Below the pieces are notes generated by a model. That model saw nothing but the letters and a program-made list of their open reading frames with translations, was not told the origin of the DNA and ran no database searches. A stretch of DNA of 64,000 bases, taken from NCBI RefSeq assembly GCF_013009075.1, contig NZ_CP053108.1, forward strand, positions 558,001 through 622,000. The letters run 5' to 3'. The translations under genes and the position numbers were made by a program. Source of the stretch: Halomonas sp. TA22. Its GTDB lineage: Bacteria; Pseudomonadota; Gammaproteobacteria; Pseudomonadales; Halomonadaceae. This document shows, one piece after another, positions 8,202 to 64,000 of the stretch (positions are counted from its first letter, which is position 1; each line of letters starts with the position of its first letter).

Positions 8202-9320
8202 ATGCTGCAATGTGATTTTGCCATCGTCGGCGGCGGCCTGGTCGGAAGCGCCATTGCCTATGGTCTGGCCAAGAGCGGTCACCGAGTGACGGTGCTGGAC
8301 GAGGGCGACATCGCCTATCGCGCCTCGCGCGGCAACTTCGGCCTGGTGTGGGTACAAGGCAAGGGGCAGGAAATACCGCTCTATTCGAACTGGAGCATGA
8401 GCTCGGCCTCGCACTGGGCGACGCTTGCCGAGGAGCTCCTCGGCATCAGCGGCGTGAGCGTACAGCACCATAATCCCGGAGGGGTGCACCTGTGCTATAG
8501 CGAGGAGGCGCTGCGGGTACGCCAAGCCGAACTCGAAGGCCTCTCACACGCTACCCAGGGGCGTTTCGAGTTCGCCATGCTCGATCATGAGCAGCTGCGC
8601 GACTTGATTCCCGAGATCGGCGAACAGGTCACTGGCGCCTCTTGGTCGCGCTGGGATGGCCACGCCAACCCGCTCTATTTGCTACGTGGATTGCATGCCG
8701 GCATTCGTCACCATGGAGGACGTTTCGTGCCCGGAGGCAAGGTTCAGCAGATCCGCCGCGAAGGACAAAGCTTCGTCATCGAACGCCCACACGAGCGGAT
8801 CCACGCCTCTCGCGTGGTGCTCGCAGCCGGGCTCGGCAACCGTGACCTGGCTCCCCAGGTGGGACTATGCGCCCCCCTAGTACCGAACAGGGGAGAGATA
8901 TTGGTGACCGAGCGCGTACGGCCGCTGCTCAAGCTGCCCACTACCTATCTGCGCCAGACCGGCGAGGGTTCGATCCTGATGGGAGATTCCCATGAGGATG
9001 TCGGTTTCAACGACGGCACCAAGACGCCGGTACTGGCCATGATCGCCCAACGTGCGGTAAGTGCCCTGCCAGCCCTGAAGGGAACGCGGGTGGTACGTAC
9101 CTGGGGGGCGCTGCGTGTGATGACACCGGACGGCTACCCCCTCTACCAAGCCTCGCAAACCCATCCCGGCGCCTTTCTCGCCTGCTGCCACAGTGGCGTG
9201 ACACTGGCTGCCGCCCATGCCCAACGCCTGGCGCCCTGGATCGCCGGTGCCGAACCCCCTGATGAGATTGCCCCTTTCACTGCGGAGAGATTCGATGTTC
9301 CAACGTCTATCCCTGCCTGA
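8202..9320 (+). CDS. DadA/glycine-oxidase-like FAD-dependent oxidoreductase (second paralogue)
   Basis: A 372-residue DAO-family flavoprotein with GGGLVG near residues 9-14 and the SRGNFGLVWVQGKG block near residues 42-55. It is very similar to the oxidase at 1142-2254. It lies directly after the permease (9-base gap, AAGGAG site), so import and oxidation are co-expressed. The next gene starts within its last codons. Likely action is oxidation of an imported secondary or primary amine to an imine, with electrons passed to an oxidase or quinone system. The substrate is unknown. Confidence 0.87.
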   Translation: MLQCDFAIVGGGLVGSAIAYGLAKSGHRVTVLDEGDIAYRASRGNFGLVWVQGKGQEIPLYSNWSMSSASHWATLAEELLGISGVSVQHHNPGGVHLCYSEEALRVRQAELEGLSHATQGRFEFAMLDHEQLRDLIPEIGEQVTGASWSRWDGHANPLYLLRGLHAGIRHHGGRFVPGGKVQQIRREGQSFVIERPHERIHASRVVLAAGLGNRDLAPQVGLCAPLVPNRGEILVTERVRPLLKLPTTYLRQTGEGSILMGDSHEDVGFNDGTKTPVLAMIAQRAVSALPALKGTRVVRTWGALRVMTPDGYPLYQASQTHPGAFLACCHSGVTLAAAHAQRLAPWIAGAEPPDEIAPFTAERFDVPTSIPA

Positions 9321-9597
9321 TTCGACGACTTCAGACGAGATCGCTTTCAGCTTCGAGGGCCGCCCGCTGCAGGCACGCCAGGGCGATACCGTGGCAGCCG
9401 CCCTACTGGCTTCCGGCGTGCTGACATGTCGGACCACGCCGATCAGCGATTCACCCCGCGCACCCTACTGCATGATGGGAGTGTGCTTCGAGTGTCTGGT
9501 GGAAATCGATGGCGTTCCCAACATGCAGGCCTGCCAGGTTCAAGTGCGTAATGGTATGCAGATACGCGCCCAGCAGGGCGCGCGGAGGTTGGCATAA
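9295..9597 (+). CDS. Small [2Fe-2S] subunit of an HcnA-type amino-acid/opine dehydrogenase
   Basis: A 100-residue ferredoxin-like protein of the SoxA/HcnA/OoxA-small type (Fer2_4). Cysteines fall as YCMMGVCFECLVEID with a later QAC, the C-x4-C-x2-C-x12-C spacing of [2Fe-2S] domains. The start at 9295 follows GGAGAG and overlaps the end of the oxidase gene; the stop overlaps the next ATG as TAATG. It should act as the electron-transfer subunit of a three-part dehydrogenase with the next two proteins. HcnABC, opine oxidases and D-hydroxyproline dehydrogenase share this layout. Confidence 0.85.
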   Translation: MFQRLSLPDSTTSDEIAFSFEGRPLQARQGDTVAAALLASGVLTCRTTPISDSPRAPYCMMGVCFECLVEIDGVPNMQACQVQVRNGMQIRAQQGARRLA

Positions 9598-11003
9598 TGG
9601 AAATCCGTGATGTAGTGATCTTGGGCAGTGGTCCCGCCGGCATGGCTGCTGCAGTCACCGCTGCGGACTACGGCATCACGCCGCTGGTCATCGACGAGCA
9701 GCCCACCCCCGGTGGCCAGATCTACCGTGCCATCGAACGCACGCCGCTGCGCGAGCGTTCACTTCTCGGCCTGGATTACTGGTACGGCGAAGCACTGGTG
9801 AAGGGGCTGAAAGACACACGCATCGATTACCGACCCGCGACCAGCGTCTGGCAATTGACGCGCCAGCGCGAGCTTGGCCTCCTGCAGAACGAACATGCCG
9901 ACATGCTGCAGGCACGCTACGTGATTCTGGCCACCGGCGCCATGGAGCGCCCCTTCCCGATCCCCGGCTGGACGCTACCAGGTGTAATGACGGCAGGCAG
10001 CGGGCAGATACTGCTCAAGAGTTCGGGCGTGGCACCCCAAGCGCCACTGGTGCTCGCCGGAACGGGTTCCCTGCTGCTGCTGCTTGCCGCCCAGTTCCTG
10101 CGCGTTGGCGTACCCATAGCCGCGCTCCTGGACACGACGCCTCCAGGCCGTTATCGCCAAGCACTGCCGCACTTCCCCGGGGCGCTGCGTAACTCAAGAA
10201 CCCTGGTCAAGGGGTTGGGCCTGCTACGTGAATTGCGCCGAGCCGGCGTGCGCCACGTCAAGCATGTCACTGCGCTACGTGCCGAGGGCGAGGGAAAGCT
10301 TCAGTCCGTCACTTGGCAGTGCCATGGCCAAGGAAAAGGGGAGACACTGGAGGCGTCTACCTTGCTGCTGCACCAGGGCGTGGTACCCAATACGCAAATC
10401 ACCCGGGCGCTCGACTGCGTTCATGAGTGGGACACGCAGCAACTTGCCTGGCGTCCCCGGCTCGATGAGTGGCTGCGCACCGATGTCGAAGGCATTGCCG
10501 TGGCCGGTGATGGCGGCGGCATCGTCGGGGCTCGGGCCGCCGAGCTACAGGGTCGGCTGGCGGCCCTCGGAGCTGTACTCTCACTGGGGTGCATCCAGCC
10601 CGATCAGATGGTATCGGAAGCGAACAGGCTGCGTCGTCGCCTGGCACGGGAAACTGCCATTCGGCCCTTTCTCGATACGCTCTACCAACCGACATCCCAA
10701 TGGCGGCTACCGGCTGACGATACCCTGGTGTGTCGCTGCGAGGAAGTCAACGCAGGTGAGATTCGTCACATGGCCGAGCTTGGCTGTCGTGGCCCCAACC
10801 AGACCAAATCTTTCACTCGCTGCGGCATGGGCCCCTGCCAAGGACGCATGTGCGGTCTGACCGTCAGTGAGCTGCTCGCCGATGCCAACGGCCAGAGCGT
10901 CGAGGAAACCGGCTACTATCGCCTGCGTCCACCTTTCAAGCCGATCACCTTGGGACAGTTGGCCGGGGCAGTGAGGAAGGATGAATGCCAGCGCGAATCG
11001 TGA
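9597..11003 (+). CDS. HcnB/OoxA-type FAD-NAD(P)-fold subunit with C-terminal [2Fe-2S] site
   Basis: A 468-residue pyridine-nucleotide-disulfide-like flavoprotein. GSGPAGMAAA at about residues 11-20 binds FAD, and a second Rossmann motif (AGTGSLLLLLA) lies near residues 154-164. The C-terminus carries a Bfd-like cluster site (CRCEEVNAGEIR ... TRCGMGPCQGRMC). The domain order is that of the alpha subunit of opine oxidase, HcnB and hydroxyproline dehydrogenase. It is translationally coupled to the small [2Fe-2S] subunit and overlaps the next gene by 19 bases. It probably passes electrons from the DadA-like subunit to the chain. Confidence 0.87.
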   Translation: MEIRDVVILGSGPAGMAAAVTAADYGITPLVIDEQPTPGGQIYRAIERTPLRERSLLGLDYWYGEALVKGLKDTRIDYRPATSVWQLTRQRELGLLQNEHADMLQARYVILATGAMERPFPIPGWTLPGVMTAGSGQILLKSSGVAPQAPLVLAGTGSLLLLLAAQFLRVGVPIAALLDTTPPGRYRQALPHFPGALRNSRTLVKGLGLLRELRRAGVRHVKHVTALRAEGEGKLQSVTWQCHGQGKGETLEASTLLLHQGVVPNTQITRALDCVHEWDTQQLAWRPRLDEWLRTDVEGIAVAGDGGGIVGARAAELQGRLAALGAVLSLGCIQPDQMVSEANRLRRRLARETAIRPFLDTLYQPTSQWRLPADDTLVCRCEEVNAGEIRHMAELGCRGPNQTKSFTRCGMGPCQGRMCGLTVSELLADANGQSVEETGYYRLRPPFKPITLGQLAGAVRKDECQRES

Positions 11004-12136
11004 TCATCGGCGCTGGGCTGCATGGCTGCAGCGCCGCCCTGTATCTCAGCTCCCGTGGCTACCAGGTGACGGTGATCGACAAGACCTACGCCGGACGCCA
11101 CGCCTCGGGAGTCAATGCCGGCGGCGTACGACGCCTGGGCCGGCACCCAGCGGAAATTCCTCTGTCGATGGCGGCTTGGGAGCGCTGGCAAAACATGGCA
11201 CGCCTGGTCGGCGATGACTGTGGATTTCGCCCCGTGGGCCAGATCAAGGTCGCCGAGAACGATGCCGACCTGGCGGTTCTCGCCGAGCGCGAGCGCCAGA
11301 TGCGTGCACTGGGCTACAGGCATGAACGCCTGATCGGCCGCGATGCGCTTCGCCAGGCTCTGCCGGCCCTTGCCCAGCATTGTCCAGGGGGGCTTGCCTG
11401 CGACGGCGATGGCTACGCCAACCCCTACCGTACGGTTACCGCTTGGCGCCGCCAGGCCGAGCGTTGCGGCGCTCGCTTTCATGAGGGCCTGGAAGTCACA
11501 AGCCTGACGCCTGGCAACGGCTGGGAGGTGGTGGCCGGCGAGAGGCGTTTCACCGCCGATATCCTGGTCAACTGTGCCGGCGCCTGGGCGGGGAAGCTAT
11601 GCGAGTGGCTCGGCGAACCGGTACCACTGCGGGCCGAAGCACCGATGCTGATGATCACCGAACGTATCGCTCCCTTTCTCGTGCCAGTCGTTGGCGCCAC
11701 CTCACGACCGCTCTCATTCAAACAGTTCGAGAACGGCACCGTGCTGATTGGCGGTGGCGTACGCGGCAGCGTCGAAAGCGACCGACAAGTCGCCGAAACG
11801 CGCCTGGGCGGCCTGGCCGAGAATGCCGATACCGCGGCCAGCTTGTTCCCGTTCATCGAACGGGCCCGCATCGTGCGTACCTGGGCCGGTGTAGAAGCCG
11901 TCATGCCCGACCAGATCCCTGTACTTGGCCGCAGCGCTATCCATGGCACCGTTATCCACGCCTTCGGCTTTTCTGCCCATGGCTTCCAGCTCGGCCCCAT
12001 TACGGGGGAGATCGCAACCGATCTCGTCATGGAACGAGAGCCGACGCTACCCATCGAGGCCCTCTCCATCGAACGCTTCACCAAGCAGAACCCGCCGCTT
12101 CCCCATGATTCGGGAACAGGCTTCACCCATGCCTGA
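10985..12136 (+). CDS. HcnC/OoxB-type FAD-dependent catalytic subunit
   Basis: A 383-residue DAO-family protein with GAGLHGCSAALYL near residues 8-20. It is the third and probably substrate-oxidising subunit of the HcnABC-like complex. GAGGAAGG lies just before ATG 10985. It differs clearly from the two DadA-like paralogues at 1142 and 8202, so the locus encodes three separate amine-oxidising flavoproteins. Glycine oxidation to HCN is one activity of this architecture, but D-amino-acid and opine oxidation are more common and better suited to the linked importer and RidA. Confidence 0.85.
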   Translation: MPARIVIIGAGLHGCSAALYLSSRGYQVTVIDKTYAGRHASGVNAGGVRRLGRHPAEIPLSMAAWERWQNMARLVGDDCGFRPVGQIKVAENDADLAVLAERERQMRALGYRHERLIGRDALRQALPALAQHCPGGLACDGDGYANPYRTVTAWRRQAERCGARFHEGLEVTSLTPGNGWEVVAGERRFTADILVNCAGAWAGKLCEWLGEPVPLRAEAPMLMITERIAPFLVPVVGATSRPLSFKQFENGTVLIGGGVRGSVESDRQVAETRLGGLAENADTAASLFPFIERARIVRTWAGVEAVMPDQIPVLGRSAIHGTVIHAFGFSAHGFQLGPITGEIATDLVMEREPTLPIEALSIERFTKQNPPLPHDSGTGFTHA

Positions 12137-12981: not shown

Positions 12982-13023
12982 GGAGCACCTCCGTTGGTTC
13001 AAGATCGAAGGCTTGATGTCCTT

Positions 13024-13066
13024 CGTTGCATTGCAACATAGCAAAGCCTTTGCTGCATTGCAACAT
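13024..13066. promoter_or_regulatory. Tandem GCATTGCAACAT repeats before the phasin gene (PhaR-like operator)
   Basis: The 12-mer GCATTGCAACAT occurs at 13028-13039 and again at 13055-13066, a 27-base period. Between them is a perfect palindrome GCAAAG-C-CTTTGC (13041-13053). PhaR repressors of phasin genes bind TGC...GCA-rich repeats, so this is a good candidate operator. PhaR binding is inferred, not shown. Confidence 0.5.
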
Positions 13067-13100
13067 CGACTGGACGAATTTTGAACAACGCAACTATCAC

Positions 13101-15032
13101 TTAAAAGTCGATATTCAGTCCCACCCAGTAACGGCGACCATCTTCGACGTAGCCGTACTCGTCGTAGTTCACGTCTTCGTCGAGCAGGTTGTAGACCCCG
13201 AACAATAGCTGGGTGGAATCGGTCAGGCGCCAGGCGCCACCGGAATCGACGATGGTATAGGAAGGCGCAACCAGGGTACTGGAGGATGGCGCGGTGATCG
13301 GCTGACTCTCCTCGCCGCGGTAAGTCACGCTCGTCCAGGCATTGAGCCGCGTATTGGGACGCCAGTCGAACTTGCCGACGACCTGGTGCTTGGGCAGTTG
13401 GGTCAGCGGCCGGCCGGCGTACTCGCCCGACTTCTGCTCGGAGTCGGTATAGGTGTAGCTGGAGGTAAAGGTCAGGGTATTGGTCAACGGTGCGGTTAGG
13501 CTCACTTCCGCCCCCTGGGTCACCGCTTCGTCGACGTTGATGCGGTAGGTGGGATCGGAACCGAACTGGTTGGGACCAGCGGTACAGATGTCGATGGGAC
13601 ACGCCACGCGGGTGATCTTGTCCTTGAAGTCGTTGTGGAACACGGTCAGGCTGGCATCGATGCCTCGCGGGGCATGATAGAGCAGCGCCAACTCCTTGTT
13701 GACCGAGGTCTCGGGCTCGAGATCGGGGTTGCCATAGATATTGCCGCCGCGGCTCGTCGCCCCCCAGTCGGCAGTGATTTCGCGCAGGCTCGGCGAGCGA
13801 TAGCCGGTTGAAACGCCCCCCTTGAGGGTCCACATCGGCGCCACGTTCCAGACGCCATAAAGGCGCGGACTGAGGTGGCTGCCGTAGTTGTCGTCATCGT
13901 CCAGGCGCAACCCCGCCGTCAGCGCAAAGGCATCCGTCATCAGCCATTCATTCTCGGCAAACAGCGAGTACTGGCTGTGGTCGACGTAGGTGCGATCGGA
14001 GATTCGGTTCGTGGTCGAGTCATCGAGCTCTTCATAGATGTAGTTAGCGCCAGCAGTGACGATATGGTTGCCAAGCGGTACCACCCAATTGGTGTTGGCC
14101 ACCGTGTTGGTGATCTCGATATCGCGCTCCTTGTTGATGGTCGACTCACGCTGTACGTAGCTGGTGGAGGTTGCCACTCCCCAGCGGCCGTTATGGGTCA
14201 GCGCGGCATATTCGCGTTCATGCTCATTGAAGGAGTACTCATCGGCCGAGCGACCTGCATGGGATTCGCGCTGAGTGTTCTGGTGCCCCGCCTCAAAGGC
14301 AAAATCATGGTTGTCGAGCGGGGTCAGTGTGAGGCGTGCCGTCAGGTTCTCGAAATCACGGCTCTCGTAGCCGTTGATGATGTCATCCTCCTGACGGGTG
14401 TTGTACTGACCATAGACATGCAGACCCAGGAGGTTCGGCACCAGCGGGCCGGCGACGTAGATCTGGCTCTGGTGAGCATTGCCCGAATCACTGCTCTCCT
14501 GGATGGTGCTCTCCAGACGCACGTTACCGTGCCACTCCTCGGCGACCTTGCGGGTAATGATGTTGATGACCCCACCGATGGCGTCGGAGCCATAGAGTGT
14601 CGACATCGGCCCACGGATCACCTCGATGCGCTCGATGGCCATCAATGGTGGCAACCAGTCCTGTTCGAAGCCTGCACTACCATTGGGCCGTGACTCCCGC
14701 GAGCCCTGGCGGCGGCCATCGACCAGCAGCAAGGTATACTGCGCCGGCATGCCGCGCATGCTGACATCGACCCCGTTATCGCCAGCGCCGCCACCGGTGA
14801 CGATCACCCCCGGCACACTACGCAGCGCATCGGTGATATCGCGATAGGCTCCCGTCTGCAACTCTTCTCGAGTAATCACGCTGATCGAGGCGGGAGCGTC
14901 CTGGACGCTCTGGGCGTACCCTGCAGCGGTGACGACCACATTGTCGAGTTCCAGATGGTTCTGGGCATTTGCTTGAATACTAGCAAGTGCCGCGATGGCT
15001 GCAGCCAGAGTGGTAGGACGGAAACGTGACAC
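13101..15032 (-). CDS. TonB-dependent outer-membrane receptor (CirA/FepA-like)
   Basis: A 643-residue receptor: signal peptide (to about residue 24, QANA), TonB-box-like region (NVVVTAAG), plug domain (about residues 45-155, with RIEVIRGPMSTLYGSDAIGG) and a beta-barrel ending VGLNIDF with the terminal Phe typical of outer-membrane barrels. It imports a ferric siderophore in partnership with the ABC genes upstream. I chose GTG 15032 because AAGGAG precedes it and a clean signal peptide follows; the longer frame to 15119 is less likely. A Fur-box-like sequence lies at 15092-15110. The ligand is not determinable. Confidence 0.9.
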   Translation of the reverse strand: MSRFRPTTLAAAIAALASIQANAQNHLELDNVVVTAAGYAQSVQDAPASISVITREELQTGAYRDITDALRSVPGVIVTGGGAGDNGVDVSMRGMPAQYTLLLVDGRRQGSRESRPNGSAGFEQDWLPPLMAIERIEVIRGPMSTLYGSDAIGGVINIITRKVAEEWHGNVRLESTIQESSDSGNAHQSQIYVAGPLVPNLLGLHVYGQYNTRQEDDIINGYESRDFENLTARLTLTPLDNHDFAFEAGHQNTQRESHAGRSADEYSFNEHEREYAALTHNGRWGVATSTSYVQRESTINKERDIEITNTVANTNWVVPLGNHIVTAGANYIYEELDDSTTNRISDRTYVDHSQYSLFAENEWLMTDAFALTAGLRLDDDDNYGSHLSPRLYGVWNVAPMWTLKGGVSTGYRSPSLREITADWGATSRGGNIYGNPDLEPETSVNKELALLYHAPRGIDASLTVFHNDFKDKITRVACPIDICTAGPNQFGSDPTYRINVDEAVTQGAEVSLTAPLTNTLTFTSSYTYTDSEQKSGEYAGRPLTQLPKHQVVGKFDWRPNTRLNAWTSVTYRGEESQPITAPSSSTLVAPSYTIVDSGGAWRLTDSTQLLFGVYNLLDEDVNYDEYGYVEDGRRYWVGLNIDF

Positions 15033-15091
15033 TAATGAGCTCTCCTTGAACACCAACGAGAACGGAAGGGATATCGTTACCAACAGCCAAT

Positions 15092-15110
15092 AGCAATCGT
15101 TATCATTTGA
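15092..15110 (-). promoter_or_regulatory. Weak Fur-box-like site before the receptor gene
   Basis: Read leftwards the site contains AATGATAACGATT. It matches the 19-base Fur consensus at about 11 positions. It sits 60 bases before the GTG of the receptor gene. Confidence 0.45.
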
Positions 15111-15169
15111 ATTGTGCATGAATCGTTCATTCGTGTCGTGCTACCAGCGTGTTGCGTATTGGGGAACGA

Positions 15170-15967
15170 TCAGGCAGGAGGCGAGCGCCGAATTCCGGCA
15201 AGTAGCGGGTTGCCCGTCTCCGGGTCGGGGATCAAGGTGCACTCGATGCCGTAGAGGCGGCGTACCAGCTCAGGAGTCACGATGTCACGCGGCGGGCCTT
15301 CGGCAATGATGGCTCCGTCGAGCATGGCCACCAAGTTGTCGGCGTAACGGCAGGCACTTGCCAGGTCATGGACGACCATGACTATCGTGCGTCCGGCGGA
15401 CGCCAGGCGGCGAATCAATTCGAAGACTTCGATCTGGTGGCCCAGATCCAGCGCCGAGGTGGGCTCGTCGAGCAGCAGTAGCGGGGTCTGCTGGGCGATG
15501 GTCATGGCGATCCAGGCGCGCTGACGCTGCCCGCCGGAGAGCGCATCCAGGTTGCGCTCGGCGAGTTCGTCGAGATCGGCGGCGGCCAGCGCCTCGGTCA
15601 CCACCTGCTGGTCCTCCATCGACCACTGACGCAACCAACCCTGATGGGGCTGGCGCCCGAAGCGGATCAGCTCGCTGACGGTCAAGCCTTCGGGAGCATG
15701 GGTTTCTTGCGGGAGCAGCGCCAGACGGGTGGCCAGCTTGCGCGACGGCAGACGCTGGATGTCCTGGCCGTCGAGCAGTACGCTGCCGCGGCTCGGGGCA
15801 TGCAGGCGCGCCAGGCCGGCCAGCAGCGTGGACTTGCCGCAGCCGTTGGGCCCGACGATCGCGGTCACCTTGCCCTGGGGCAGGGAGAGGCTCAACGACT
15901 CGATCACCGAGAGGCGGCCATAGGCCAGTCCCAATTCACGGGCTTCGAGGCCGGACGATGCGCTCAT
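15170..15967 (-). CDS. Ferric-siderophore ABC importer ATPase (FecE/FhuC type)
   Basis: A 265-residue ATPase with Walker A GPNGCGKST (about residues 39-47), signature LSGGQRQR, Walker [13 protein letters not shown] and switch VVHDLA. It energises the two FecCD-type permeases encoded just upstream. Its ATG at 15967 overlaps the end of the permease gene by four bases; the same frame extends upstream to 16723 only across the permease gene and is not used. Confidence 0.92.
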   Translation of the reverse strand: MSASSGLEARELGLAYGRLSVIESLSLSLPQGKVTAIVGPNGCGKSTLLAGLARLHAPSRGSVLLDGQDIQRLPSRKLATRLALLPQETHAPEGLTVSELIRFGRQPHQGWLRQWSMEDQQVVTEALAAADLDELAERNLDALSGGQRQRAWIAMTIAQQTPLLLLDEPTSALDLGHQIEVFELIRRLASAGRTIVMVVHDLASACRYADNLVAMLDGAIIAEGPPRDIVTPELVRRLYGIECTLIPDPETGNPLLAGIRRSPPA

Positions 15968-56351: not shown

Positions 56352-57131
56352 CTAGGTAATGCTCTCAGTCTCTGGACTCTCCAGCTCGAGAAATTTACGT
56401 ACACGATCGGTCTTGGGTCGCTGGAAGAACTCCTCTGGTGGAGAGTTCTCAATGATTACTCCTTTTTCAAGGAATACCACTTGGTCAGAAACATTCCGAG
56501 CGAACTCCATCTCGTGGGTGACGACCACCATTGTCATGCCTTCACGAGCCAGTTGCTTCATGACCGCGAGCACCTCGCCGACGAGTTCCGGATCTAGCGC
56601 CGAAGTCGGCTCGTCGAACAGCATCACATCAGGCTGCATTGCCAGGGCGCGGGCAATAGCCACACGCTGCTTTTGGCCGCCAGAGAGGGTGTAAGGATAG
56701 TTATCGCGCTTTTCGGTCATTCCTACCTTTTCAAGCAATTCTAATCCGAGCCGCTCTGCTTCAGCCTTGGCCATGCCCTGTACGTGAATAGGCGCTTCGG
56801 TGACATTACGCAGCACGCTCAGGTGCGGCCACAGGTTGAAACTCTGAAACACCATGCCTAGCCGTGCGCGACGCTTCGCCAACTCGCGGCGAGACATAGG
56901 CTTGCCATTGACATTGATACCGATACGGTCGCCAGCGACACGAATCTCACCATGGTCGGGTACCTCTAACCAATTAATGCAGCGCAACAAGGTTGACTTA
57001 CCTGAACCGGAAGAGCCCAGGATGCTTACCACCTCGCCCCGCTTGACCTCTAGATCAACGTCTCGTAACACTTCCACGTCGTCGAAACTCTTGGATAAAT
57101 TGCGAATGCTCACGGCGGCTGTCTCAGCCAT
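56352..57131 (-). CDS. Polar amino-acid ABC importer ATPase (GlnQ/HisP type)
   Basis: A 259-residue ATPase with Walker [10 protein letters not shown] (about residues 39-47), Q-loop [10 protein letters not shown], signature LSGGQKQR, Walker [12 protein letters not shown] and switch VTHEMEFA. It overlaps the upstream permease gene by 8 bases. It is the last gene of a four-gene importer operon. Codon use is somewhat more AT-rich than in the neighbouring operons. Confidence 0.92.
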
Positions 57132-57789
57132 TCTCGAATCCTCTCTTCGTGCCGAAACGGCCTAATTGCTTGATGAAGACATCCAGCCCAAGGCTGATCG
57201 CCCAGTAGAAACCGATTACCACTATGAAAGCTTCCATCGGGATGAAGTAGGTTGACGACAGGCTGTTGGCGGCTGCCGTCAACTCACGCACAGTGATGAT
57301 GACAAGAAAGGCCGTGTCCTTGAGACCGATGATCAATTGATTGCCAATCAAAGGGCGCGTCCTCAGGATCAGCTGTGGCAAGATGATGCGCAGGAACATA
57401 TTGGGAATGGAAAAACCCTGCGCCGTTGCCGCCTCAATCTGGCCTTGAGCCAGTGTCGAACGACTTCCACGAAATATCTCAGCGAAGTACGCTCCGTGAT
57501 AGATAACTAACGCAATGATCCCGGCCGTCCAAGCATTCAGACGAATCCCCAGGCTGGGCAGTCCATAATAAAGAAGATATGCCAACACCAGGAACGGCAG
57601 CATGCGCATGCCATCGATGAATATGCGCAGCGGCACACGCAAGCGCGGTCTCGCTCCCTCCAACAGGAACACCACCAGACACCCAAGCAAGAAGGCCAAT
57701 AGTGATGAGAAGCCAAAGATTTGCAGGGTACTGAGAAAGCCACGCCAGAATACATCTCGCGCCGACCAGAGTATTTCCCAGTTGCTCAT
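57124..57789 (-). CDS. Polar amino-acid ABC importer permease (second)
   Basis: A 221-residue HisM/GlnP-type permease with about five hydrophobic segments and the EAA-like block ([20 protein letters not shown], about residues 141-160). With the preceding permease it forms a heterodimeric channel. The ATG is 12 bases after the other permease's stop, with AAGGAG in front. Confidence 0.9.
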
Positions 57790-57801: not shown

Positions 57802-58446
57802 TTACACAGCCAGGCGGTTGGCCTTTCGCTCAGCGACACGTTGCAGCCATACCAGCAGGCTGATGATCGCCATGTACAAAACCGCCGCAGCCAGGATCGG
57901 CGGCAGGGGCTCATAGGTCACCGCCGAAATGCGGTTGGTGACTCGCGTTAGATCGACGATGCCGATCACCGCAATGGCCGGGCTTCCCTTGATCAGAAAC
58001 GACATTTCGTTGACCAGCCCAGGCAGACTGGTAATGGTAATTTGCGGCAACATGATGCGCCGAAAGTAGACGTATGGCGTCATGCCGATGGCCATCGCCG
58101 CCTCACGCTGCTCGCGGGAGAAATTATTGAATGCCGAGCGCCAAATCTCGGCATTAAAGGCTGCCGTATTTAGTGTCAAAGCCAAAATACCGGCGACATT
58201 GCGGTTGAGGCTGATTCCAAAGGTCGGTGCCGTCATGAAGATGAACAGTACCAAGGTGACCAGTGGGGTAGCTCTGGCGATGCTGATATAGAGTCCCAGC
58301 ACTTGATGCACGAAGGGAATCCGAGCGGTACGAAGCAGTGCAATGACCAAGCCCAGCACCACGCCAATGGCGATCGATACACCAGAAATCCAGGCGGTGG
58401 TCCAGGCGCCCTGAAATAACAAGCCCCAAGCTCCGCTAGTCATCAT
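57802..58446 (-). CDS. Polar amino-acid ABC importer permease (first)
   Basis: A 214-residue HisQ/GlnP-type permease (AAMAIGMTPYVYFRRIMLPQ EAA block). Two adjacent ATGs follow GAGGGG; I give the first, and the second, 3 bases downstream, has slightly better spacing. An upstream in-frame ATG at 58473 lacks a ribosome site. Confidence 0.88.
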   Translation of the reverse strand: MMTSGAWGLLFQGAWTTAWISGVSIAIGVVLGLVIALLRTARIPFVHQVLGLYISIARATPLVTLVLFIFMTAPTFGISLNRNVAGILALTLNTAAFNAEIWRSAFNNFSREQREAAMAIGMTPYVYFRRIMLPQITITSLPGLVNEMSFLIKGSPAIAVIGIVDLTRVTNRISAVTYEPLPPILAAAVLYMAIISLLVWLQRVAERKANRLAV

Positions 58447-58541
58447 GTTCCCCTCGATAAGCCTATCTTTCATTACCCCTCACTCGCCGACATTGCGAGT
58501 GAGGGCTTCGTTGTGCCAGCGTATGGCCAGCCAGGCTCAGA

Positions 58542-59447
58542 TCAGTTCATGCCTGCCATTTCGTGATATTCCTCAACAGTAGTAATCGGGACATGAGGCA
58601 GATCATCGAAGGATTGACCGAACCACTTTTCCTGAAGCTCAGCCAGACGGCCGCTTTCGCGCATTTCGGTCATAAAATCAGTTAGGTATTCGAGAAGCTC
58701 GGGGCTGTTCTTGGGAACGGGCCAAGAGGCGAACCCAGGGCCGGATACGGCCTGCCCCATGGCAAAAGTATCTCCTCTCACGCTTACCAGATCATTTAGC
58801 GGCACCACGGCATCCACAACAAAGTCGAGCCGGCCATTGGCCAGATCAGCGTGTGCCTCAGGATAGGATTCATACTCGACAACTTCGCCGAGCCTTCCAC
58901 CCTGCTCCTCTAGCGTTGTAGCCAACTCAGATAAACGGCTCAGGCCTACGCTACCAGCCTGAGCGCCAACACGTTTGCCGCTCAAATCTTCAACACTGTT
59001 AATACTATCGTCATCGATACGCTTGACATAAAAGATCTGTGCAGAGGCGTAAGGAGGAACAAAGTTGAAGACACGCAGGCGCTCCTCGGAAACCAAGGCG
59101 CCCGTCGTGGCTACGTCGTACTGGCCAGTAGCTACCGAGGCTAATAGGCCAGTCCACGGCAGAATGTCTTGGCGGATTTCAAAATCAGCATATTCACGCA
59201 ACTCCTCAAGCATATCCGCCGTGAATCCCTCCGGTTCACCGTCGGCAATAAAGTTGAAGGGGGCATAATTGTCCTCGGTCGCCACATTCATGTAGCCACG
59301 GCTCTCGATTTCAGGGAGGTCGACAGCAGCGGCCTGCAGAGAAAGGCTCAGTGCGATACCGCCAAGGCTCATCGAAAGCGCCTTGAATAGTGCCTTGTGC
59401 TTGGGCCAGCCACCCTTGGTGGTAGATTGGGAGTGGTAAATCGCCAT
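58542..59447 (-). CDS. Polar amino-acid ABC importer solute-binding protein
   Basis: A 301-residue SBP_bac_3 protein. A long N-terminus precedes the signal core (LSMSLGGIALSLSLQAAAVD, about residues 24-43). The YAPFNFIADGEPEGF loop, TTGALVSEERLRVFNF and GKRVGAQAGSVG are classical for amino-acid binding. AAAGAGGGC precedes the ATG. It diverges from the MocR gene, which probably controls it. Confidence 0.9.
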   Translation of the reverse strand: MAIYHSQSTTKGGWPKHKALFKALSMSLGGIALSLSLQAAAVDLPEIESRGYMNVATEDNYAPFNFIADGEPEGFTADMLEELREYADFEIRQDILPWTGLLASVATGQYDVATTGALVSEERLRVFNFVPPYASAQIFYVKRIDDDSINSVEDLSGKRVGAQAGSVGLSRLSELATTLEEQGGRLGEVVEYESYPEAHADLANGRLDFVVDAVVPLNDLVSVRGDTFAMGQAVSGPGFASWPVPKNSPELLEYLTDFMTEMRESGRLAELQEKWFGQSFDDLPHVPITTVEEYHEMAGMN

Positions 59448-59664
59448 GTTACAGCCCTCTTTTTGTGTGTTGGAAATCAGGGTCGAAGCGGCCTCGACAG
59501 GCAGTGCCGAATTCGGCCTCATTGCCTTGCCTTCACCCTAGAGATTTCCCTCGTCATCCATTAGAGCCAGATGCGCGCGATTCGAAGGACAGCCTTTGAG
59601 CTGTCTCATGGCACGCATATTGCTTTGATACAATAGGGATAAAATAATTGTTTCGAGGGTTGCC
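59448..59664. promoter_or_regulatory. Divergent promoter region of the importer and MocR genes
   Basis: A 217-base region. TAGAGCCAGA at 59562-59571 recurs as ATAGAGCCAGA (63237-63247) and inverted as TCTGGCCCTAT (63305-63315) near the aminotransferase/TauE genes. A -10-like TACAAT lies at about 59629-59634. Confidence 0.45.
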
Positions 59665-61131
59665 ATGACGATGCTTTGCTTGACGCTTGAAAATGGTGCT
59701 ACTAGTTGTCTGCAGGAGCAGCTTCGTGTGGCCTTGCTCGAAACGATCCGGCTCAATGCGATTCCAACAGATGAAGCACTACCCTCATGCCGGAAATTAT
59801 CGAAACAGCTAGGAATTTCGCGCAACACTGTCGCTATCGTTTATGAAGGGCTGGTCGAGGACGGTTATTTAGTAAGTCGTCCTCGCAGTGGTTATTACCT
59901 GCATGAAAACTACCATCAGGAGGGCTTAGCGCTGGAGGAGATCCCTCACCAGACCAAGCTTGAAGCACCATCTTGGAGCAAGCGTTTCACTCACCGCCCC
60001 AGTAATTATCAAGGGGTACTCAAACCCAGCAATTGGATGGAATACGACTACCCTTTCATCTATGGGCAGCTTGATACGCAACTGTTTCCTCTGGAGCAAT
60101 GGCGCGACGTTAACCGTCGGCTGCTCAGCGGCCGAAGCGACAAGCACTGGTTAGGTGATCGCATCGACCAAGACGATCCACTGCTGATCGAGCAACTACG
60201 CAAGCGAGTATTGCCAAAGCGCGGTATTTTTGCACGCAGTGACGAAATCTTGATCACAATGGGCTCACAAAATGCACTGTTCTTGATCGCTCAATTGCTC
60301 CTCCATAGCGAAACTCGTATCGGGTTGGAGAATCCAGGCTATCGAGAGGCAGTTAATGTATTTGCGCGACAGGGTGCCAAGCTACAATTGCACGGCATAG
60401 ACAATCAGGGAATTTTGTTAAATGAAAACTCCAAGGCCTGTGATTATCTCTATGTCATGCCCAGCCATCAGGTGCCAACGGGAATAACCATGAGCCACAC
60501 CCGCCGCGAGGAGTTGATCGCACAAATACAGGCTCATGATCAGATCGTAATCGAAGATGATTACGATGCCGAAATGCATGGCGATCAATTCGCACTGCCC
60601 GCACTAAAGGCTAGCCGTGCTGGCCAACGAGTCATCTATATGAGCAGCTTCTCGAAAGCGCTTTCTCCCGGACTTCGCCTAGGCTATATAGTAGCCGACT
60701 CCGAACTGGTCGAAGAATTACGTGCGCTGCGGCGAATGATGTACCGCCACCCCCCTTCCGGCCTGCAGCACCAGATGGCACAGTTTTTTTCCCAAGGACA
60801 CTACGAACGATATCTACGCTTCTATACGGACGACACTCAGCGCCGTCGCGAGCGGCTGGGTAAGGCGTTGGAAAGAGAGCTGGAGGGCTGTCGACGAATC
60901 AATGGCAGCCAAGCCAGCGCCTTCTGGCTGGAAGCGCCCAACAGCCTGGATACGCAACATTTGGCTTGGCAAGCTGCTCAGCTTGGCGTGCTGATCGAGC
61001 CAGGGTTTCAGCATTTCTTTAATCAAGCACCGCCAAGAAATTTCCTACGCTTGGGATTCGGTGCAATCGATTGTGAGCGCATCGATTCTGGAATCTCGCG
61101 CTTGGCTCAAGCTTTTGACAGAGTAGCTTGA
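59665..61131 (+). CDS. MocR-family regulator (GntR winged helix plus aminotransferase domain)
   Basis: A 488-residue PdxR/GabR/TauR-like protein. The GntR-type winged helix covers about residues 12-80 (ALPSCRKLSKQLGISRNTVA) and the fold-type I aminotransferase-like domain about 110-485. PLP-binding Lys331 is visible in SSFSKALSPGLRLG, and the DDYDAE motif binds the PLP ring. Such regulators sense amines, for example GABA, taurine or pyridoxal, as PLP adducts. Likely targets are the divergent importer and the aminotransferase at 61771. Base composition is noticeably lower in GC than the catabolic operons to the left. Confidence 0.92.
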   Translation: MTMLCLTLENGATSCLQEQLRVALLETIRLNAIPTDEALPSCRKLSKQLGISRNTVAIVYEGLVEDGYLVSRPRSGYYLHENYHQEGLALEEIPHQTKLEAPSWSKRFTHRPSNYQGVLKPSNWMEYDYPFIYGQLDTQLFPLEQWRDVNRRLLSGRSDKHWLGDRIDQDDPLLIEQLRKRVLPKRGIFARSDEILITMGSQNALFLIAQLLLHSETRIGLENPGYREAVNVFARQGAKLQLHGIDNQGILLNENSKACDYLYVMPSHQVPTGITMSHTRREELIAQIQAHDQIVIEDDYDAEMHGDQFALPALKASRAGQRVIYMSSFSKALSPGLRLGYIVADSELVEELRALRRMMYRHPPSGLQHQMAQFFSQGHYERYLRFYTDDTQRRRERLGKALERELEGCRRINGSQASAFWLEAPNSLDTQHLAWQAAQLGVLIEPGFQHFFNQAPPRNFLRLGFGAIDCERIDSGISRLAQAFDRVA

Positions 61132-61363
61132 GCCAAGCGGCAGATACCGAAAGCCCATAAGACCAGTTATCAGGATGTCACAAAAAGGCCTGACAACTGA
61201 CTCTAATGAGTCGGATTTGACTCGCTAGAGCCATGTAGGCATAGGTAGCTTATGCAGGGGATGACGGGGCTGGTAATGGCTAAGCTACTACGCTTTATCT
61301 GAAGCATTAGCCAGCTCGCCAGCATTCTATACTTCAAGCCCTGAAAACATTTAAGTAATTTGT

Positions 61364-61565
61364 ATGGCAGCAAGAAGGGGAATGAGCGAAGGTATTTGTA
61401 ATCATTTCTCAGCGCTGGCTCCCGGCTATCCTGAGCTCTTCTTAGTGAACCTTTACGGCCTGGCCTTTGAGGAGATAACAGCATCAAAACTACTGACCTG
61501 TGATTTTCACGGCAATGTTGTGGACGGCGCAGGAGAACCCGAGGCCACGGCTTTCTATATTCATG
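61364..61565 (+). pseudogene. Class II aldolase fragment (5' part of a chimeric pseudogene)
   Basis: Codons from about 61382 read SEGICNHFSALAPG, LFLVNLYGLAFEEITASKLL and CDFHGNVV, the N-terminal blocks of class II aldolase/adducin proteins (residues about 30-95 of a roughly 250-residue enzyme). The homology stops abruptly at about 61565 and is replaced by MocR sequence. The catalytic His cluster further on is lost. It is a deletion remnant with no functional product expected. Confidence 0.75.
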
Positions 61566-61713
61566 GTCGGCGTACTGATCGAACCGGGCTTTCAGCACTT
61601 TTTCAAACTGCACCCCACCTCGCCACTATTTCCGCCTTGGCTTCGGCGCCATTGATGCCGAACGGATCACTCCAGGCATTCAACTACTGGCCAAGGCATT
61701 TCATGCCATGTAA
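61566..61713 (+). pseudogene. C-terminal MocR fragment (3' part of a chimeric pseudogene)
   Basis: From 61566 the frame reads VGVLIEPGFQHFFKLHPT, then after a one-base shift at about 61620 RHYFRLGFGAIDAERITPGI, LLAKAFHAM and stop at 61713. This matches the last 48 residues or so of the intact MocR upstream (LGVLIEPGFQHFF, FLRLGFGAIDCERI, LAQAF). The two differ in about a third of positions, so it comes from a second MocR gene, not a recent copy. It is out of frame with the aldolase fragment. Confidence 0.82.
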
Positions 61714-61748
61714 ATGAACTCGCCGCCCTTGATGGGCGGCGAGTTCAT
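61714..61748. terminator. Bidirectional terminator between the pseudogene and the aminotransferase
   Basis: ATGAACTCGCCGCCC, loop TTGAT, then GGGCGGCGAGTTCAT: a perfect 15-base stem between convergent units. The hairpin survives although the rightward gene is broken. Confidence 0.82.
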
Positions 61749-61770
61749 TCATGCATTCAACGAAACGCAC

Positions 61771-63093
61771 CTACTTGACGAAGCGGGGCGATAGCTCGCT
61801 TAACACCTCGTCGAGAATGCTCAACCCCTGTTCGACCTCCTGTGCAGACACCGTGCAGGGCGGGACCACATGGATGCGGTTCTCGACGATGAAAGTGAGT
61901 AGGCCTTTTGCCGCAAGCGCACCCTTGAGCTCTGCCATGCCAGTGCCTGCAAGTGGCTCACGCGTTTCGGGATCAGTCACGAATTCGAGGGCATGGAATA
62001 CACCGAGGCCGCGCCGCTCGCCGATAATGGCGTGCTTGTCTGCCAGCGTATCGAGCCCCGACGCCAACACACCGTTGCCTACGCGGTCGGCATTTTCGAT
62101 GATGCCCTCTTCTTCCATGGCATCGAGCGTAGCGACGATGGATGCCATGGCAAGCGGATGCCCGGAGTAGGTCATGCCACCCACGAAGAAGTGATCATCA
62201 AAATAGCGGCTGATCCGCTCGGAGATGATCACCCCACCCGTGGGGACATAACCGGAGTTGACGCCCTTGGCGAAGACGATCAGATCCGGCTCCACCGCAA
62301 AGTGATCGAAGGCGAACCAGCTCCCGGTACGCCCGAAGCCTGCCATGACCTCGTCGAGAATCAGCATGATGCCAAACTCGTCGGCAAGCGCGCGCACGCC
62401 CTTGAGATACTCCTTCGGTGGCACGAGGATGCCCGCGGTACCGGGAATGGTTTCCAGCAAAATGGCGGCAATGGCTTGGGGGCCTTCGCACTCGATCACC
62501 CTACGCAGGTGATGCAAGGCACGTTCACACTCTTCCTCCTCTGAGCTCGACCAGAAATCGGTGCGGTACAGATAGGGATTGAAAAAGTGGGCATGGCCGC
62601 GAGCAAATTCGTTGGGTACGCGCCGCCAGTCACCCGTGGCTGCGATGGCCGACCCGGTATTGCCGTGATAGGAGCGATAGGCCGAAAGCACCTTGTCGCG
62701 CCCGGTGACGATACGCGCCATACGAATCGCGTTCTCATTGGCGTCGGCACCGGCGTTGGTGAAGAACACCTTCTTGAAGCTATCGGGGGCGCGGGCCAGG
62801 ATGCGCTTGGCGGCTTCGCCGCGTGCCAGGTTGGCGTGCGCCGGCGCCACCGTGGCGAGAGTCTCGGCCTGCGCCTTGATAGCAGCCACTACCTTGGGGT
62901 GCTGATGGCCGATATTGGTATTGACCAGCTGGCTACTGAAGTCGAGATACTCCTTGCCGGCGAAGTCCCACAGCTTGCACCCCGACGCACCGGCGATCAC
63001 CAGCGGATTGAGGCTGCCCTGTACAGACCAGGAGTGGAAGATGTGCTCTCGATCCAGTTGGTATACGTATTCGTTCGATTCTTTATGAGACAT
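61771..63093 (-). CDS. Class III PLP aminotransferase (taurine/omega-amino acid type)
   Basis: A 440-residue class III aminotransferase. It opens with DREHIFHSWSVQG and FSSQLVNTNIGHQHP, carries the ILDEVMAGFGRTG block (about residues 245-257) and PLP-binding Lys276 in FAKGVNSGYVP. These features resemble taurine-pyruvate and related omega-amino acid transaminases. With the MocR regulator, the amino-acid importer and the divergent TauE gene, degradation of taurine or another omega-amino acid is plausible. No sulfoacetaldehyde acetyltransferase is in view, so taurine remains a guess. Confidence 0.88.
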   Translation of the reverse strand: MSHKESNEYVYQLDREHIFHSWSVQGSLNPLVIAGASGCKLWDFAGKEYLDFSSQLVNTNIGHQHPKVVAAIKAQAETLATVAPAHANLARGEAAKRILARAPDSFKKVFFTNAGADANENAIRMARIVTGRDKVLSAYRSYHGNTGSAIAATGDWRRVPNEFARGHAHFFNPYLYRTDFWSSSEEEECERALHHLRRVIECEGPQAIAAILLETIPGTAGILVPPKEYLKGVRALADEFGIMLILDEVMAGFGRTGSWFAFDHFAVEPDLIVFAKGVNSGYVPTGGVIISERISRYFDDHFFVGGMTYSGHPLAMASIVATLDAMEEEGIIENADRVGNGVLASGLDTLADKHAIIGERRGLGVFHALEFVTDPETREPLAGTGMAELKGALAAKGLLTFIVENRIHVVPPCTVSAQEVEQGLSILDEVLSELSPRFVK

Positions 63094-63374
63094 GTGTGCC
63101 TGCTTCCGTCATCTGGTTAAAAATCCGAGCCTCTACGCGGCATCGTTTGGGCCTCGTACAACTGATTCGTTTACAGGCCCACGTCGTCATGCCGGTGACG
63201 ATGGACGACCAGACTAGAAAAACGCTCACCTCCCCCATAGAGCCAGAACGGACCGGCCGCCTGGACAGACGCGATGGACGGAGATGTCCCGAGCAACCGC
63301 CTCATCTGGCCCTATGAGCAACCCGAGCAGTTTTCTAGAGTAACGCCACGTCAACCACAAGGAACTGAAACGAC
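63094..63374. promoter_or_regulatory. Divergent promoter region of the aminotransferase and TauE genes
   Basis: No gene in 281 bases. ATAGAGCCAGA (63237-63247) and the inverted TCTGGCCCTAT (63305-63315) form a spaced inverted repeat with 10 of 11 matching positions, similar to TAGAGCCAGA before the MocR gene. Confidence 0.4.
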
Positions 63375-64000
63375 GTGAGTTTACTGCCCGCCATGCTCAT
63401 CGTGTTCTTCGCCGGCGTGGTACGCGGGTACAGCGGCTTTGGCTTTGCCATGATCGTGGCGTTGGGGCTGATGTTCTTCATGCCGCCGGTGCATGCCATC
63501 CCGATGGCACTGCTGCTGGACCTAGTGTGCAGCCTGGGACTGCTGCGCCGAGCTATGCATCGCATGCATCACGCCATGACGCCTCGGCTCATCGTCGGCA
63601 TGCTGATCGCAACACCGCTCGGCGTCTGGCTGGTCGCCTACTTGCCGGCTGAGAGAATCAGCACACTGGTGGCGGTGGTGTCACTGCTGGGTGGTTTGTC
63701 CATCCTATTCGGACGCAAGCCTAGGGCGCCGGCAATCGAACCAGCTACACCTGGGCGGCTGGAAAGATACGCCATCCCGGCGGGGGGCGTCTCCGGTCTC
63801 TCGATGACCATGGCCTCTGCGGGGGGACCACCGCTGATGCTGTATCTCCTCAACACATCCTTGCCGCCGACAGTCATGCGTGCCACGGCCATCGTGTTCT
63901 TCATGGCCAGTAGCAGTTGTTCCTTGCTCGGTTTCGCCCTAGTCGGAGCATTGACGAGCGACATCCTCACCTGGGGAGCGATGCTGGTGATCCCAGCGCT
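63375..64000 (+). CDS. TauE/SafE-family membrane permease (5' part)
   Basis: The open frame starts at GTG 63375 (AAGGAA site) and runs off the window after 208 codons. It encodes hydrophobic segments with the family's RGYSGFGFA motif at about residues 16-24 and the second-half ASAGGPPLMLYLL block. TauE/SafE proteins export sulfite or organosulfonates, or import small anions. Its position next to a taurine-like aminotransferase fits sulfonate metabolism. Confidence 0.87.
   Translation, partial: MSLLPAMLIVFFAGVVRGYSGFGFAMIVALGLMFFMPPVHAIPMALLLDLVCSLGLLRRAMHRMHHAMTPRLIVGMLIATPLGVWLVAYLPAERISTLVAVVSLLGGLSILFGRKPRAPAIEPATPGRLERYAIPAGGVSGLSMTMASAGGPPLMLYLLNTSLPPTVMRATAIVFFMASSSCSLLGFALVGALTSDILTWGAMLVIPA

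Follow-up and report, generated by a model that had tools for sequence, protein, structure and literature searches.

A MocR remnant joined to an aldolase scrap beside a class III aminotransferase gene in Halomonas sp. TA22: a probable scar of regulator replacement between lineages

In situ gene displacement within conserved operons has been described (PMC2783167), and many prokaryotic pseudogenes, which are widespread, have been tied to failed horizontal transfer (PMC522871). For TauR, a consensus operator, CTGGACYTAA, has been reported (PMC5320631). Here, a pseudogene located near the end of a 64,000-bp stretch of the Halomonas sp. TA22 chromosome (the window; NZ_CP053108.1, positions 558,001 to 622,000, from a genome represented by a single contig of 3.73 Mb, which named records with a similar gene cluster place in the Halomonadaceae) was compared to these systems. 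As in xenologous displacement (PMC2783167), genes of the cluster differ in phylogeny and gene order is kept; in contrast to that process as described there, the old gene at this locus appears to have left a visible remnant, with an extra scrap at the seam. As in other prokaryotic pseudogenes (PMC522871), the remnant is truncated, frameshifted, and located near a functional homolog, whereas here it appears to derive from an earlier resident gene, and two unrelated fragments are joined. The locus also resembles TauR-type regulons (PMC5320631) in combining a MocR regulator with a class III aminotransferase, an amino acid ABC transporter, a nearby TauE-type exporter, and a similar DNA box, although the box here is CTGGYYCTA rather than CTGGACYTAA. 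Genomic scars of this kind are ordinary, and the feature is probably a further example of in situ displacement, one in which the scar is legible. Among the papers listed by a literature search on this case, on displacement, and on remnants, none described this locus.

Table 1. Features of the analyzed locus (window coordinates; g11 and similar labels denote groups of family genomes)
Feature	Position	Strand	Basis and remarks
ABC transporter ATP-binding protein (polar amino acid type), putative foreign block	56352..57131	-	NCBIfam; groups with g11; GC about 53%
ABC permease 1, putative foreign block	57124..57789	-	79-81% identity to g11 genomes vs 64-72% to others
ABC permease 2, putative foreign block	57802..58473	-	NCBIfam; 85-89% to g11 vs 74-81% to others
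Substrate-binding protein (SBP), putative foreign block	58542..59522	-	NCBIfam, identities; closest other copy in the genome at 35% identity
Operator-like box CTGGCTCTA between SBP and MocR1	59562..59570	-	Motif search; surroundings align best to g11 genome G010
MocR1, intact GntR/aminotransferase-type regulator	59665..61131	+	Pfam GntR and Aminotran_1_2; sister to g11
Stretch without recognized homology	61132..61363		DNA and protein searches; GC 46.6%
Class II aldolase gene, internal fragment cut at both ends (about codons 36-103 of 261)	61364..61567	+	NCBIfam, Pfam, alignment to relatives
Aldolase/MocR junction, resolved to a few bases	61567..61571		Ends of both DNA homologies
Second MocR gene, last ~47 codons, with a one-base shift at about 61616-61624	61569..61713	+	DNA/protein alignment to relatives
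Inverted repeat (16 bp, perfect) in the MocR tail-AT3 interval, candidate shared terminator	61713..61749		Repeat search
AT3, class III aminotransferase	61771..63093	-	Pfam; NCBIfam PRK06062, 730.6 bits vs 472
Operator-like box CTGGCTCTAT upstream of AT3	63238..63246	-	Motif search
Operator-like box CTGGCCCTAT upstream of AT3, 68 bp from the 63238 box	63306..63314	+	Motif search

The initial annotation had described the pseudogene as a dead chimera of aldolase and MocR pieces, and both fragments were confirmed by profile and DNA homology, with matches far beyond chance. The 204-bp aldolase piece encodes 68 residues that match NCBIfam PRK06486 (E 6.9e-32, profile positions 37-104 of 262) and Pfam Aldolase_II (E 1.3e-10). 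At 110.7 bits, it misses the curated cut-off of PRK06486 (NF005068; 269 bits), compared to 421.7-438.3 bits for its intact relatives, with which it shares 66-76% amino acid identity. Close intact relatives were found in eight other genomes of the 250 family genomes (six from group g4 and two from g17); the best other match within the TA22 genome is 40% identical. The piece had been taken for the head of an aldolase gene; however, it is an internal scrap, because the first ~35 codons and everything past codon ~103 are missing, and no resemblance to those first codons was detected in any frame of the preceding 230 bp. The DNA of that stretch (61132-61363) matched only the TA22 genome itself when searched against the 250 family genomes, and a search within it for an aldolase N-terminus, the 3′ end of AT3, or any protein trace returned nothing convincing. 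The GC3 of the fragment (0.47) is closer to that of MocR1 (0.54) than to those of its family aldolase relatives (0.69-0.85), and dN/dS over the 68 codons was uninformative, with most synonymous values saturated. In a plasmid collection, 11 records matched, and all eight listed matches were to the aldolase part, including weaker DNA matches on plasmids of rhizobia and others; of three plasmid regions inspected among these matches, two were annotated, and both lacked a MocR-AT3 pair.

Homology to the aldolase ends at about 61567-61571 (a sharp end at about 61565 in the initial annotation), and homology to MocR starts at 61568-61569 and runs to a stop codon at 61711-61713. The span of the join is too short for a confident call of microhomology, and a search for flanking direct repeats found none that frame the seam. 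An Rfam scan of 61000-61800 yielded only BSR0602, at 21.8 bits vs a gathering threshold of 191, which was taken as a chance match. Contrary to the proposed in-frame continuation, the MocR tail starts one base (+1) out of register with the aldolase reading frame (61569-61364 = 205), while the later one-base shift that had been proposed was recovered, with 144 bases of the window aligning to 143 of genome G009. With one frame change at the junction and another within the tail, no aldolase-MocR fusion protein is encoded: the ATG-initiated open reading frame of 117 codons comprises 68 aldolase residues, with zero stops, followed by ~49 residues of wrong-frame MocR DNA. Truncation and frameshift abolish the protein, as in pseudogenes. 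When two candidates were scored per genome across 275 family genomes, 36 matched the joined region (own genome included), and every foreign match listed covered one side only. Among these matches, no relative shares the join; the initial annotation had named conservation of the fusion under selection in many genomes as grounds for refuting its reading.

The MocR part had been described as the last 48 codons of a regulator, close to the ~47 found here. Its nearest relative is in G009 (80% DNA identity over 144 bases; 35/42 residues), and it differs from the intact upstream MocR1 as had been observed, with 30/45 residues equal. A position of the tail beside MocR1 in a tree was not rejected (p 0.38), and the tail is too short for firm placing; in this comparison, the long-branched row G018 was left out and G010 had no C-terminal letters. 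A terminator scan requiring a T-run found none in the interval between the tail and AT3. Among 80 named loci surveyed around AT3 relatives, 37 carry a MocR relative and 43 do not; the ABC/SBP-MocR-AT3 order is present in all 37 MocR-bearing loci, with MocR convergent to AT3 at 24-215 bp, SBP divergent beyond MocR, and an aldolase between them in none. The window keeps the gene order of its relatives, plus the extra MocR tail. Since this order holds in 37/37 loci, the tail sits in the native slot of AT3's regulator, supporting the earlier proposal that a second MocR gene once stood here and suggesting that the tail, whose own affinity is weakly resolved, is what is left of AT3's former regulator.

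The genes upstream of the seam appear to have a different history from the genome that carries them. GC content is about 63% up to near 56.3 kb, where it drops to about 53%, and it recovers near 61.75 kb, and the low-GC block of ABC, SBP and MocR1 genes averages 53.3%, compared to 61% for the window. In the rpoB tree, the TA22 genome is sister to two g13 genomes taken as Halomonas salipaludis and H. socia (support 98). The ABC, ABC+SBP and MocR1 trees instead place it as sister to six g11 genomes (support 99), two of which were taken as Halomonas sp. QHL1 and HL-48; the identities of this group equal those of named Vreelandella loci, hence the label Vreelandella-type used here. A clade with g13 was rejected for both ABC+SBP (p 1.8e-41) and MocR1 (p 3.1e-5), as was a clade with G009 (p 2.8e-10 and 0.004, respectively). 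The ABC+SBP and MocR1 trees therefore conflict with the rpoB tree, as expected of displaced genes. The genome was not firmly placed in a gyrB tree, in which one row (G016) was bad; G018, a long branch, was left out of the AU tests for AT3 and MocR1, and the ABC trees lack G206 and G018, for which no ABC hit was obtained. The SBP-MocR1 intergenic region aligned best to that of the g11 genome G010 (score 46), followed by two g17 genomes (40 and 38), with 300 shuffles scoring at most 25. MocR1 combines a GntR-type DNA-binding domain with an aminotransferase-like domain (Pfam), the architecture of TauR-type regulators, and passes the NCBIfam PdxR model (325.2 vs 320). Because MocR1 and its upstream SBP/ABC genes repeat the layout of the relatives' loci, two versions of one regulator met here: MocR1 is the version of this cluster's regulator that belongs to another lineage.

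AT3, for which the nearest solved structure is a taurine:2-oxoglutarate aminotransferase (6jix), is sister to G009 in its tree (support 96); a clade with g13 was rejected (p 3.7e-5), and one with g11 was not (p 0.17). As AT3 also departs from the rpoB tree, more than one transfer is likely in the history of this locus. The AT3 promoter region aligned to that of G009 with a score of 63, followed by a g4 genome at 42, with 300 shuffles at 30 or below, and the two boxes in this region are identical to those of G009 in both decamers and spacing. AT3, its promoter and, weakly, the MocR tail resemble G009.

A search for the TauR operator CTGGACYTAA with up to one mismatch found no site near MocR1 and AT3. 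The related box CTGG[CT][CT]CTA was built from TauR sites with two mismatches allowed, taken from the window and a small number of loci, and the 37 MocR-bearing loci on which it was then counted include these. In 36 of these 37 loci it lies no more than 300 bp upstream of AT3, at a density there of 4.2 per kb vs 0.02 per kb elsewhere in them, and in 22 it lies in the MocR-SBP interval; it is also present in 9 of the 43 AT3 loci without MocR. Of another 24 loci from the family, some of which come from organisms already represented, 19 have the box ahead of AT3, and L174, L178, L211, L217, and L224 do not. It is a predicted operator for this group of MocR regulators and resembles the TauR consensus without being identical to it. 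Since the box precedes both the MocR/SBP pair and AT3, the imported MocR1 could control AT3 and may now do so.

These data point, with good though incomplete confidence, to the arrival of a foreign ABC-SBP-MocR1 block beside a resident MocR-AT3 pair, with the resident MocR cut down to its tail. The block, bearing unplaced DNA and an aldolase scrap at its edge, would have been joined to the resident pair by an illegitimate event at about codon 440 of its MocR, with loss of the first nine tenths of this gene and survival of its last ~47 codons beside AT3. The remnant also carries the one-base shift and makes no regulator, and MocR1, the counterpart of the lost regulator, would have taken its place. 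One single import event would lie behind the seam, with the aldolase scrap presumably having travelled at the margin of the imported block. With MocR1 as its counterpart, the resident regulator could be lost without harm, and the missing interval (the remainder of MocR and perhaps SBP/ABC) probably contained genes whose counterparts survive. The earlier suggestion that a whole pathway was lost is not sustained: the genes most likely missing have counterparts next door, nothing shows that a complete aldolase pathway existed at this locus, and the supposed lost pathway becomes a likely replaced regulator. A fuller causal account is plausible but tentative, namely that the resident MocR was lost because a Vreelandella-like MocR came with its own transporter, that this was tolerated because both lineages use CTGGYYCTA, and that the foreign regulator controls the resident AT3.

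The initial annotation had instead proposed an ancestral aldolase gene upstream of the second MocR, with one deletion fusing both genes and eliminating the pathway. This agrees with the sharpness of the join, and four Pseudomonas loci have an intact aldolase related to the fragment adjoining AT3, with a box in the common interval, so that the two enzymes may share a role somewhere. In those loci, however, the aldolase lies on the other side of AT3, without MocR, and the intact aldolase-MocR order beside AT3 that this scheme expects in relatives was found in none of the 37 MocR+AT3 loci, the surveyed stretches of which lack any aldolase of the fragment's type (the far ends of L034, L036 and L052 carry a relative of another aldolase of the TA22 genome). 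The neighborhoods of the nearest aldolases vary between loci, with that of similar type in L166, for instance, adjoining a topoisomerase I-like gene recognized by eye; the box is absent upstream of the aldolase in all eight family loci; and the best listed match to the fragment in the g13 genomes, sister to TA22 by rpoB, is 49%. Moreover, the fragment is also cut on its 5′ side, which one deletion does not explain. A simple deletion is therefore improbable. Against the import reading, in turn, no genome with the aldolase downstream of such a MocR was found; the unrejected placements of the tail beside MocR1 and of AT3 with g11, the g17 scores for the SBP-MocR1 interval, the gyrB tree, and the departure of AT3 from rpoB also weigh against it.

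The order of events could also be reversed, with AT3 and the tail as newcomers: a G009-like fragment ending inside MocR would have been inserted downstream of an older ABC-SBP-MocR1 cluster. The rejection of g13 for AT3, which is likewise off the rpoB tree, and the affinity common to AT3, its promoter and the tail are consistent with such an insertion. Nonetheless, AT3 is near host composition (GC 59.9%, GC3 0.73), unlike the ABC-MocR1 block, and the conflict of ABC/MocR1 with the species tree is at least as strong, making this order of events unlikely. Far less credible is that the 117-residue frame encodes a real expressed protein or that the join is an assembly error. The ATG start and the uninterrupted aldolase codons would fit a protein, but most of the aldolase domain is missing and the C-terminal residues come from wrong-frame MocR DNA; the join is absent from the listed matches in relatives, and the genome is a single contig. 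Replacement of the resident MocR by MocR1 is thus the preferred reading, and it offers a small testable case of transcription factor replacement between genera, with a predicted operator upstream of AT3.

Several observations concern the wider neighborhood. In the Pseudomonas loci mentioned above (L045, L046, L050, and L051, about 8860-11320), the aldolase of the same type is divergent to AT3, with one CTGGYYCTA-type box between them and no adjoining MocR, a layout that hints at a joint role of aldolase and AT3 there. At 63375-64000 of the window, a TauE/SafE-type exporter gene is transcribed divergently from AT3; several relatives share this arrangement, although identity is only about 50%. 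An insert between SBP and MocR in L176 (3158-7108) seems to comprise transporter, amidohydrolase and CobW-like genes and recalls the COG523/COG1574 members of TauR regulons (PMC5320631); the amidohydrolase had no match in the TA22 genome, an empty answer that is uninformative alone. Inserts of 4-5 kb are also present at this position in L024, L025, L029, and L177. In L077 (Halomonas sulfidaeris ATCC BAA-803, 12982-15254), the matches to SBP and permease 1 are broken into several overlapping segments, as frameshifts or sequencing errors in that genome would produce.
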